From the NCBI GenBank assembly GCA_021234155.1, contig JAJEKV010000011.1:13247255-13311254 (forward strand): a stretch of 64,000 bases of DNA, read 5' to 3'. Source of the DNA: Isoetes taiwanensis. Taxonomy: Eukaryota; Streptophyta; Lycopodiopsida; Isoetales; Isoetaceae. Shown piece by piece: positions 14,271 to 28,463 of this stretch (positions are counted from its first letter, which is position 1; every line of letters begins with the position of its first letter). The position numbers were made by a program, and so were the translations under genes. The notes beneath the pieces were generated by a model, which was not told the DNA's origin, did not search any database, and saw only the letters and a list, made by a program, of their open reading frames with translations.

Positions 14271-14454
14271 CAGACATTAGAGTTTTTTTGGGATCACTTA
14301 TTGTCCCAAGCTCGATGCCAGCATGGAAATCGCGCGACCAATGAGAATTCGGGGGGGTACAGGCTTTTCTTCATCCATGCCTCCCTTCCCATGCCAGGTG
14401 TCGTCAAGGTACAGGTTCGGCATTATCCTTACCTACCTGCCCTGGAGGTTCGGT

Positions 14455-14489
14455 GGGCGGGAAGTAATAATTACAAATTATTCCCGCCC
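14455..14489. promoter_or_regulatory. Inverted E2F-like sites upstream of first element gene
   Basis: GGGCGGGAA (14455-14463) and TTCCCGCCC (14481-14489) form a perfect 9-bp inverted repeat around an AT-rich core. TTCCCGCC matches the plant E2F consensus (TTTSSCGC-type), which drives S-phase genes and is used by some plant DNA viruses. A TATA-like TCTATAAGTA follows at 14517-14526 and the first ATG of the gene below is at 14662. Confidence 0.5.
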
Positions 14490-14661
14490 TAAATTACCGC
14501 CCAAATGTTGGGGTGTCTATAAGTACCCCCCCCCCTTCCTTAACGGCTCTTCTTTTCGCGTCTCTCCATCCAGGTTTGCTAATGCTTTCAATCCTTCTAG
14601 TTCTCAAGGAGCTCATCGATTCGAGATCTGTTTGATCTAATTAATTTGCGGTTCATTTCGG

Positions 14662-15433
14662 ATGGCGATTACCTGTCCACAAATGAAACGATTTCGGTAC
14701 CGCTTCAATATATTTCTTGGGAGCTTCGACAATCCGACCGCCACTCGAGGGTCCTCATCGGGATCAAAGGCGGGAGAAATGTTATTTCAAGCCATTGGAA
14801 GGCTATTGTTGTCGGGTTCGAGGTGAGAGGGGAAGTATATATCAAGGTCAGACACCTATACACACCGACAGACATGAGAAAAGAAAAGATAAGATCTCGA
14901 CGTAATTTCCCTGAGCTTCGTGCGAATTGTGAGTTTCATTATATCTGTGCTAATCCGTCATTCGTTATAATTTGAAGAAATCAACTAATTGGGTTTCTGG
15001 TATCTCAGGGCTCTGTATTTCCGATGTGCTGGACCTGGAACCATCGAGTTCTATCATAAGCATCTTCCGTGCTTTCTATTATGATATTGGATCCTTGCTT
15101 TTGAAGGTCAAACGAAGTGCGTACCTGGGGGGAAAGGGGATTTGGTTCTTAAAATATGAGTATTATCCTCGAAAAGGCAAAATTGTGGACTTACCATTGC
15201 CCCCATTATCACAGCTTAGTTCCTGCCCAATGGATTCCAGTTTTCTGTTTCTTGCCAAGCTGAAATTGTCACAGGAAATTTTCAGTGCTTTGAAGGAGAA
15301 AGGTGGAGTCTGTGGACACGTGAAAGTAAATGTACCCATCGATATGTTTATTACCTTGTTTAAGAATGTCGAGAATGTCAAGAAGACTTCAAAAATGTTT
15401 CTTCGTAAAGTGATTGTCGATTGTTTTGGATGA
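14662..15433 (+). pseudogene. Unknown element gene 1, spliced and frameshifted
   Basis: From ATG 14662 the frame reads MAITCPQMKRFRYRFNIFLG and so on for 53 codons, to a good donor (AG|GTGAGAGG, 14823). The acceptor TATCTCAG at 15008 rejoins the frame as ALYFRCAGPGTIEFYHKH. About 25 codons later this frame stops, while the next frame (15081-15433) continues with LLLKVKRSAYLGGKGIWF and an Ile/Val/Lys-rich C-terminus. One frameshift near 15080 therefore breaks a protein of about 195 residues. I recognise no domain. The E2F-like repeat and TATA box upstream look like its promoter. Confidence 0.45.
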
Positions 15434-25323: not shown

Positions 25324-25469
25324 TGTCGTGCCCACGCTGCCAACCTAACATATTCGAAACATTATAGTTGCACATCATGGTCAATAGTTACACATTAATA
25401 TGAATTTATTCATACAATTGATTCCCCAGAAGTATATCTTCTACCCCGTCTGATCCTTGTGGATCGCCA

Positions 25470-28031
25470 CTACCTTAACTTGTCTGCTGCACTAGAGCTA
25501 CACCATATCTGTTTCTTTTTTTCCTGCTCAACTTTTCTCCTCAATATTCTAGCCAACGTCGTGTCTTGTTTAGCTTTATCTTTTTTCTCTAGCTTGCAGA
25601 TAATCCTTCTATAGAACCATTGGCACATCTGTTGCAATGAGTTACCACACGAACCTCGATGTTGTGTGAACCTGAAAAAAGCATTCTTGGCTTGCTTATG
25701 TGACTTCTCCATTCCTTGCGTATTCCATATTCCCAAGCTCCCGTACTCTTTGGCAAACCACAAGCCATGGGCGTGAAATATATGAATGTAATGTGTGACA
25801 TTGCATTCTCCCTATGCTTGTATAAACGACTTCGTGAATTCAGTTACTGCTACTCTGAATTCATCTAACTTTCCACCCACCATTTTCTTCTCTGCCATCA
25901 AAGTTACCAGACTGCTCAGATTCTGCCACGCTTTAATTTTCTTTAGTTTTCCCCTCCCACGTGAAGTACGGTCATCTTCTGCTTCCAGCAAGTCCTTATA
26001 CCCCTCCCACTTTCCAGTTGGCAATGATCCATTCTTACGTAATTTAGTACAAGGCAGAAATCTCTTCGCTTTCACCCCACCCATAGATGGTTTACAAGGA
26101 ACCTTGCCTCCCTTCTTAGGATCTTGCAGGATTTTATAGTCACCACCATGAAGACCAAGATCAGAAAGCACGTTCTCAACATCTTTCATACACTTTTCTC
26201 TGGCTGATTGTGGAGACTTATTCCAAGCAAAAAGAATGCTCATGTACACCATCTTATCCACTATTCTTAGAAAGGCATGGAGAGTGCAAATATGTACTCT
26301 CTTCACGAGAATTGCAAATGCGGGGATCAAAGTTTTGTCCTCCTTCTCATCGTTGGTTCAAAGATCCCGGTCACATTCGAGAGTACTCATTCCCTTCCCC
26401 TATCATCTACCCTAGCATACAAACAAGTAAGGACATGCGTGGGTAGTCTTACCGAACCATGTTTCATGTTATACATGCACTTGATGGTCTTTAGATCAGT
26501 AGCCGATGCCATTCAACCTCGTAATCTCCGTAGCCGGGAACCTCAAGCTTCTCTCCGACTCCATGAGCAAAGAATAATAGTAGGAATAGGTGTCTGGCTG
26601 AAAGACCCAATCAAGAACACCATGATTTTCTTCCCAGCCTTGAAATATCCCTATCCACCAAATATGGTCCTCTCGATTGAACAGAGAACTTCCCTTCCTC
26701 ATTATCGAATTTGACAACGCCTGTTCATTAATGTCAAAGAAACCCTCTCATACTTTTCACCTTTGATCAGTTCCATCTCATCCAACTTTATAGCAATTTG
26801 GAGTTTCCCTCCACATTCTTCCACTTTCATATCATAGAAGCTTAACTAATGTAAGAAGCATCTTAGAGAGACCCATCCAACAATTATTCTTCTCATTAAG
26901 AACAAATAGATCATTTCCTGAGCCACCCTTCTTCTTACTTTTCCCAGTGATTAGTGATCCCAAGTGCACGGATGTGGTGATCTGGTACATCTCTCCCAAA
27001 TGTTCGTGTACTTTTGCATTCCTCTTTGTTCTGCTTTGCTCGACATAACCGAGTCTTGGCGGTATGGTCTTCAAATAATACCACTGTTGCTTGATACCAT
27101 CCCCGCAAACATCTAAAGAGAGCAATGTAAGCTTGTCGACCGATACCCACATTGTCACATAATTCTTGCATGTTATCAACACTTTGACTCTTTCCCAATT
27201 CAAGAAAGCACTGTTCAAAGAATGACTTTTTCGTAAATGGTTAGCTCCAGGAAGCTTCAACATATCTATAACATCATCTTTAGTTACAAGCTTTTTCAAC
27301 AAACTAGCCATATTACAAGGTTTTCTCTTCTTCTTTTCAGCCATAGTAGGATCCACCAGATTTTTAATAGCGTGGATCCTTCTTCTTCGAAACCCCACCA
27401 CTAGGGGCAAGTATATTTAGGGCCTTCAGTTCTTTTTTCCTCTCCCTCATGCCTAGTGGTGTCATTTTCAGTCTTTTTAACTTCCTCTCCAGTTTGTCAT
27501 TGTCCTCAGAGCATCTCTTCAATCCTTGTTTAAGTGACTCCACCTCCATAAGCAACCTTTGATTGGAAGCTTGCAGTTCTTCTATATTCTTAAACCAATT
27601 GGTTAAGAAATAGTTACACTGTTGGAGGTAATTACAATGTGCTACCATATTGCAATGCACTCCACACAATTGATTGTACATTGTTCTCAAATGCACATCG
27701 GAATTACTTGAAATATTATTGCAATAGCCAAGCAGACCTTGATTACCCTTACAGGCAAAATGAATAAGCCCCGATGGAGAATGAAATTCAGGATGTCTTC
27801 TGGTGATCGGATCGATGGGATACAGTTCCCCACGCGCCCAGAGATCAATATTCATAGCACCAGAAGCTCGAAGAGCATTCTCATCGACCTGTTCCTTCCG
27901 ATTATATTGATTTTTGTAGGGCAAGCAGTTCTTGGGCACCTCCACCCGGAATTGGCCTTTCAGTTTCTGTATTCAAAAAAGAATTACTCATTGTCATTGG
28001 CCGAAATTAATAGAACAGTTACCTCTGCCAT
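25470..28031 (-). pseudogene. Large transposase-like element gene, decayed
   Basis: The gene starts with a mini-exon (ATG GCA GAG, 28031-28023), a 56-base GT-AG intron (28022-27967), then KLKGQFRVEVPKN. Segments follow in changing frames: a coiled coil (KRCSEDNDKLERKLKRLKM, about 27460), LLKKLVTKDDVIDMLKLPG (27300), a short block with QIAIKLDEMEL (about 26790), REDHIWWIGIFQGW (26670), VHICTLHAFLRIVDKMVY (26290) and finally VTHYIHIFHAHG with YGSLGIWNTQGMEKSH (25800-25700). That pattern of scattered His, Asp and Glu motifs is what I associate with a poorly described transposase-like family in algae and animals; I cannot name it. At least four frame changes or stops are needed, so it is dead. 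Confidence 0.5.
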
Positions 28032-28463
28032 AGATCGAATTCAGAGTCGTGATCGCTTTCCGAGCTCCACAACCGGCTGACCAAATTGATGCAATTCTTA
28101 AGCCAAAATACGAAGGAAAACTAGAGAATTCCTTCGGATTTGGGCGAGGATTGACATCAAAACTAAATTCGAAATGCCCTCCAAAGCTTTGGCGCCCAAT
28201 TGAGGCATTCTTGAGGCGTCCCGCTCGAAGCTACTCCTTGTAGCTTCAGTTCGGTGGGAAGGTGGGGGGAGGAGGGATTTAGGCGTAATGAGTAAAACAA
28301 CAAGTAATAATGACGTTTACCAGGTTCGGTTGCTCCAGGGTTGAGGTTCGGTTGAGGTTCGTGGGGGCTTTTTGCCCATACCTGCAGGTTCGGGTACCAA
28401 CTAAAATCCAAATTTGGAAATGGCTTACAAGGGCGTTAATAGACTCCACCAAACCTCTAATGT

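Follow-up and report, generated by a model that had tools for sequence, protein, structure and literature searches.

A block of 14,188 bp (positions 14275-28462) in a 64,000-nucleotide stretch of Isoetes taiwanensis DNA (contig JAJEKV010000011.1; hereafter the window) is a decayed member of a large repeated DNA-element family, about 11-12 kb long; the length in the window includes a nested insert of 3,494 bp, and the borders are common to other copies. The block is very probably a copy of a DNA transposon that has several genes and short inverted ends, CATTAGAG...CTCTAATG, that occupies its target without duplication wherever an empty site was readable, and that is likely moved by its own transposase, predicted to have a RAG1 fold.

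Copies of the element were searched for in the whole genome (1,658,258,908 bases in 1110 contigs). Using the left 1.17 kb, which includes gene 1, as a DNA query, at least 40 places were matched (best 40 of 347 first-look candidates scored; 41 rows, consisting of 40 places and one 34-base piece of one place). Among the matches listed, the 39 other places showed an identity of 88-95%, and 37 of the 40 matches began at query base 1 or 2, the rest starting at bases 4, 20, and 84, the last being the one preceded by the 34-base piece. Similarly, the right 1.1 kb matched at least 40 places (best 40 of 264 candidates scored), 36 of which extended to base 1099 or 1100. Left and right matches, with 12 left/right pairs, represent at least about 68 loci among the matches listed. 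Junctions were read at 30 distinct left ends (the window copy and 29 others), all starting with CATTAGAG and having flanks unlike each other, and at 31 right ends, 30 of which end with CTCTAATG. Pairs of left and right ends spanned 10.8 to 61 kb, 8 of the 12 falling between 10.8 and 16.3 kb; the longer ones presumably contain nested inserts. Two full copies, read piecewise, were 12.06 and 10.78 kb long and collinear with the block in the window. Both carry approximately 293 bp absent from the window copy at 25327-25328, and both diverge from the window around 22.8-23.7 kb.

A previous reading of the window, made from the letters only (the sequence-only reading), had proposed one mobile element inserted in a GATA microsatellite, with inward-facing genes from both ends. 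Such open reading frames (ORFs) were found on both sides of the block. Each of the 29 other left ends read, and 29 of the 30 other right ends (all but L063), stop at the element borders, and other copies have empty sites. Neither of the outcomes that the reading had named against itself, genes occurring apart in unrelated surroundings or alignments running through the borders, was observed.

The two GATA arrays, at 14108-14274 (+; 41.8 copies) and 28463-28634 (+; 43 copies), share one orientation and are of similar length, as previously described. They are the target of the window copy only, the phase of the right array carrying on from the left one. No GATA array stood at any of the 29 other left or 30 other right ends read, and a special role of the arrays is not supported; the arrays as part of the element were ruled out on the same junctions. 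The inverted 9-mers ACATTAGAG and CTCTAATGT, said to mark the exact borders, occur once each in the window and precisely at the array borders, but the element proper begins one base further inside, with CATTAGAG at 14275, and ends at 28462, as determined from other copies. The extended terminal inverted repeat measures 12 bp with one mismatch: CATTAGAGTTTT at 14275-14286 (+), identical in other copies, and CATTAGAGGTTT, read inwards, at 28451-28462 (-). Past 12 bp, no similarity of the ends above shuffles was found at 300-600 bp.

Target duplications were looked for in 11 left/right pairs, yielding no exact 5-bp flank repeat and one 4-bp repeat. For the empty-site search, 70 + 70 flank bases of ten pairs were joined and compared with the genome (best 40 of 4650 candidates scored). 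Contiguous matches spanning the junction were obtained for at least four pairs (L027/L041, L005/L033, L003/L054, and L020/L040), and six of the 40 listed places, from four insertions, were read. In all six sequences the last base of the left flank is directly followed by the first of the right flank, a net change of 0 bp. The 4-bp repeat GTAA at L027/L041 was ruled out as a duplication, since the empty site already has both copies. In the window, the GATA phase is unbroken across the element apart from one T-to-C change, as expected if 0 (or 4n) bases, but not 5, were duplicated. Wherever an empty site was readable, the element stands in its target without duplication, and the 5-bp duplication of Transib and RAG-like transposons was seen in none of the pairs or empty-site sequences. 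Some observations weigh against this interpretation of the ends and their insertion. Over 8 bp, 36 of 88 flank positions match, vs 25.0 when the pairings are shuffled (p 0.005), with 7 of 8 matches in the GATA pair alone; near-repeats within 5 bp of the junction sum to 27 in 10 pairs, vs 19.8 (0.063 of shuffles); and the right end of L063 deviates from CTCTAATG in its last bases.

The candidate RAG1-fold transposase gene is located at 25467-27945 (-) and consists of a coiled-coil N-terminal part followed by a predicted D-D-E core with zinc ligands. In the window it is interrupted by changes of frame and by a TAG at 25812-25814. RAG1 matches came from relatives of the transposase, for which modelling points to a RAG1-type RNase H fold. 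In the 797-amino-acid open frame of L069, the predicted D-D-E triad and the C-x2-C and H-x4-H zinc ligands follow the RAG1 order (D335, D440, C461/C464, H676/H681, and E701), assigned by comparison with the RAG1 residue numbering. The core and zinc site of the element's own enzyme are predicted from sequence and from a relative's model. A first structure model, P0001 (5 sequences; predicted local distance difference test score 61), had RAG1 at rank 1 with E 0.3, too weak for a firm match, and a marginal sequence match to RAG1 vanished with wider profiles; families missing from the VIA list are not thereby excluded. Sequence searches of the transposase gave no Transib row, and no Pfam row for a PIF/Harbinger-like DDE enzyme was obtained for the (broken) transposase or 16 relatives, the structural match being RAG1. 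A second, less decayed RAG1-like transposase subfamily with stop-free frames of up to 930 amino acids is present in the same genome (L066, L067, L068, and L069); 3 of the 101 H3-like loci were found at 35 kb or less from one of the 80 best matches of this P0001 subfamily.

The histone H3-like gene, at 24000-25039 (-), encodes a long N-terminal tail and a long loop 1. Its ORF at 24047-24994 (-) matched the Pfam Histone family (E 5e-6) and H3 chains (E 0.0011), while the final part of the histone fold lies in another frame (24062-24000). Against the whole genome, the protein matched at least 148 stretches (best 126 of 2402 candidates scored), several being stop-free over 484-567 codons. One stretch of an uninterrupted copy, L076, was read; its histone fold is complete, closes with an RVTIM...DIAL segment of H3 type, and matched Pfam Histone at 4.3e-19 and PDB H3 at 2.9e-14. 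The H3-fold gene of the sequence-only reading is borne out, both in the window (5e-6) and in the uninterrupted copy (4e-19). As in histone H3 and CENP-A, the fold is complete and carries H3 signatures including RVTIM; the element's protein differs in being transposon-borne, in the long tail before the fold, and in loop 1, which is about 20 residues longer in the alignment. Linkage to the element ends was counted with 103 of the 148 H3-like rows. A match was present within 35 kb on the element side of 31 of 40 left ends and 31 of 40 right ends, but on the outer side of 0 of 40 and 1 of 40, respectively; the H3-like gene is therefore part of the element. When a protein set was searched with the window copy, itself broken, none of 2332 candidates reached E 0.001, a result that reflects the broken query as much as the set. 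In the window copy, the element's own transposase and H3-like genes are both broken.

Gene 1 (14646-15433, +) likely has two exons, with an intron at approximately 14929-15008 (GT...AG, by eye), and gene 2 (16220-17802, +) has an acidic stretch, one likely intron at approximately 17283-17343 and, in the window, frame shifts inside the gene (both by eye). No Pfam match and no convincing PDB or PHROGs match was found for gene 1, and Pfam, PHROGs, and PDB gave no convincing match for gene 2, in agreement with the earlier remark that several genes are of no known family. Frames of gene 2 are present in L032, and collinearity of the two full copies suggests that gene 2 belongs to the element. Variants in the 29 other copies were distributed over codon positions as 19/19/24 and 15/16/21, a slight third-position lean as for copies decaying after insertion.

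The missing target duplication and the lack of known relatives of genes 1 and 2 could also be accommodated if another enzyme, such as the product of gene 1 or of gene 2 or else a recombinase working on a circle, moved the element with the RAG1-like gene as a passenger. We consider this unlikely, as the transposase region beside the right end was retained in both full copies, relatives keep long stop-free frames with catalytic residues, and no recombinase or HUH domain was detected in 10 scanned ORFs; the RAG1-like gene likely moves the element. Fold and catalytic spacing would also suit a strict Transib or RAG-like transposon whose 5-bp duplications have decayed, and 39 potential Transib-like proteins in plants are reported by Tao et al. 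2022 (PMC9435367). The evidence makes this quite improbable: the duplication is 0 bp at six of six empty-site sequences, a 5-bp duplication would shift the array phase that is unbroken in the window, the ends start with CATTAGAG and not CAC, and the copies are 5-12% apart, too little for the 5-bp repeats of 11 pairs to have been wiped out without exception.

Several orphan genes, inward-facing transcription, and a histone gene might instead recall an endogenous virus, virophage, or Polinton/Maverick, given that giant viruses encode histones. Such an origin is hard to credit. No capsid, DNA polymerase B, packaging ATPase, or protease was found in 10 ORFs with Pfam or 8 with PHROGs, in a broken copy represented by some frames only; the PHROGs rows were weak and none was a structural hallmark, and scanning viral_contigs with the transposase confirmed no relative. 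The label virus-like, used in the sequence-only reading, is not supported. That the two GATA arrays belong to the element ends, or that the block is host DNA lying by chance between them, would fit the like array lengths on either side but leaves the GATA-free junctions of all other copies read unexplained, and its probability is next to nil.

The mobile element of the RAG1 type, as preferred here, would by its predicted enzyme fold be a DNA transposon of the RAG1/Transib clan, and by its ends and lack of duplication would be neither Transib nor RAG-like. No element pairing a RAG1-like enzyme with a histone was found among the open-licence papers listed in the literature searches. Where the sequence-only reading could name no known element class, the ends, the absent duplication, and the gene set indeed fit no described member found, whereas the predicted transposase fold does point to a known clan. 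To our knowledge, RAG1 relatives make 5-bp target duplications. Compared with RAG1 and RAG-like transposons (ProtoRAG/BbRAGL and AanRAGL), whose ends are CAC..., the element carries CATTAGAG in place of a CAC heptamer, lacks the 5-bp duplication, has extra genes including a histone, is about 11-12 kb long, and has a likely plant host. No Kelch match indicating a RAG2-like partner was found in 10 ORFs of the window copy, whose genes 1 and 2 are broken as well as divergent. From Transib (HzTransib) it differs by the absent 5-bp duplication, another end motif, and several genes. Spy (PHIS superfamily) comprises DDE transposons that likewise lack target duplications; its transposase is of another clan, and it is smaller and is not known to carry a histone gene. 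The RAG-like elements of Aureococcus have 5-bp duplications and a CAC-type end, CACACCCAAACCT in AanRAGL, according to Tao et al. 2022 (PMC9435367). The giant KDZ/EnSpm transposons of Ectocarpus (PMC12477816) are also large DNA transposons with nested insertions but have other transposase families, and the nested insert of the present element is absent in the two copies read.

Transposition might proceed as follows. The RAG1-like enzyme would pair both ends and cut the element out, and joining would take place at two directly opposed, or immediately trimmed, target phosphates, which would leave no gap whose filling could create a duplication. Bearing a tail of its own, the H3-like protein might be incorporated into chromatin at or close to the element, where it could shield the element from host silencing or attract the transposase; we propose that it gives local chromatin control of the element. 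Genes 1 and 2 could be accessory factors. The window copy would have landed in a GATA array, later been struck by a pogo-like element, and now be inactive.

This nested pogo-like element (17853-21346, -) is flanked by TA at 17851-17852 and 21347-21348 and has imperfect inverted ends GAGTAGA..CTCCA. Its stretch is absent in both full copies, the first having an exact empty site at TA and the second a gap at 17851-21382. The DDE_1 transposase ORF at 18726-20534, with Psq- and Tc5-type DNA-binding domains, is a gene of the nested element, contrary to the gene set earlier ascribed to the block. The shared palindrome clusters were recovered, GCACCGTGGCCACGGTGCG occurring in two copies at 16015-16107, in three at 21398-21535, and again at 23640-23849; they are possibly binding sites. 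By eye, a sequence akin to this palindrome comes after the H3-like gene in L076. One or more decayed ORFs lie at 22881-23500 (+). Adjoining a full element copy, L033:2480-5470 encodes a DUF7869 protein (Pfam 5e-33), and the ORFs found with it resemble those of the window at 21.8-23.5 kb (by eye); this stretch is perhaps a sibling element with a different enzyme.

Elsewhere in the window, a 366-amino-acid ORF at 7128-8228 (-), in which a GR-rich stretch precedes an HUH endonuclease domain of the Replitron type (Pfam PF21859, E 9e-11), is likely a Replitron remnant. At 45228-47949 (-) lies a broken element resembling a long interspersed nuclear element, with a reverse transcriptase (Pfam RVT_1 4e-21) and a weak match to an endonuclease; copy L060 has its right flank in the same repeat. 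Ordinary plant genes stand on either side of the block, a PPR gene to the left (2491-3225, -) and pectate lyase exons (Pfam 2e-10) to the right (31924-32705, +).

RAG1 cuts vertebrate antibody genes, and its relatives are investigated as the source of adaptive immunity. An abundant plant lineage that inserts without duplication and has uninterrupted relatives would broaden the RAG1 clan and provide a natural contrast for how DDE enzymes set their stagger. Whether the element represents a new superfamily of plant DNA transposons, in which a zero-base-stagger RAG1-fold transposase travels with its own H3 variant controlling the chromatin state of its copies, is in our judgement evenly balanced. 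If true, this would be a selfish element bringing its own nucleosome, and a transposon-borne H3 variant would open to direct testing the idea that mobile elements use their own histones to manipulate chromatin.
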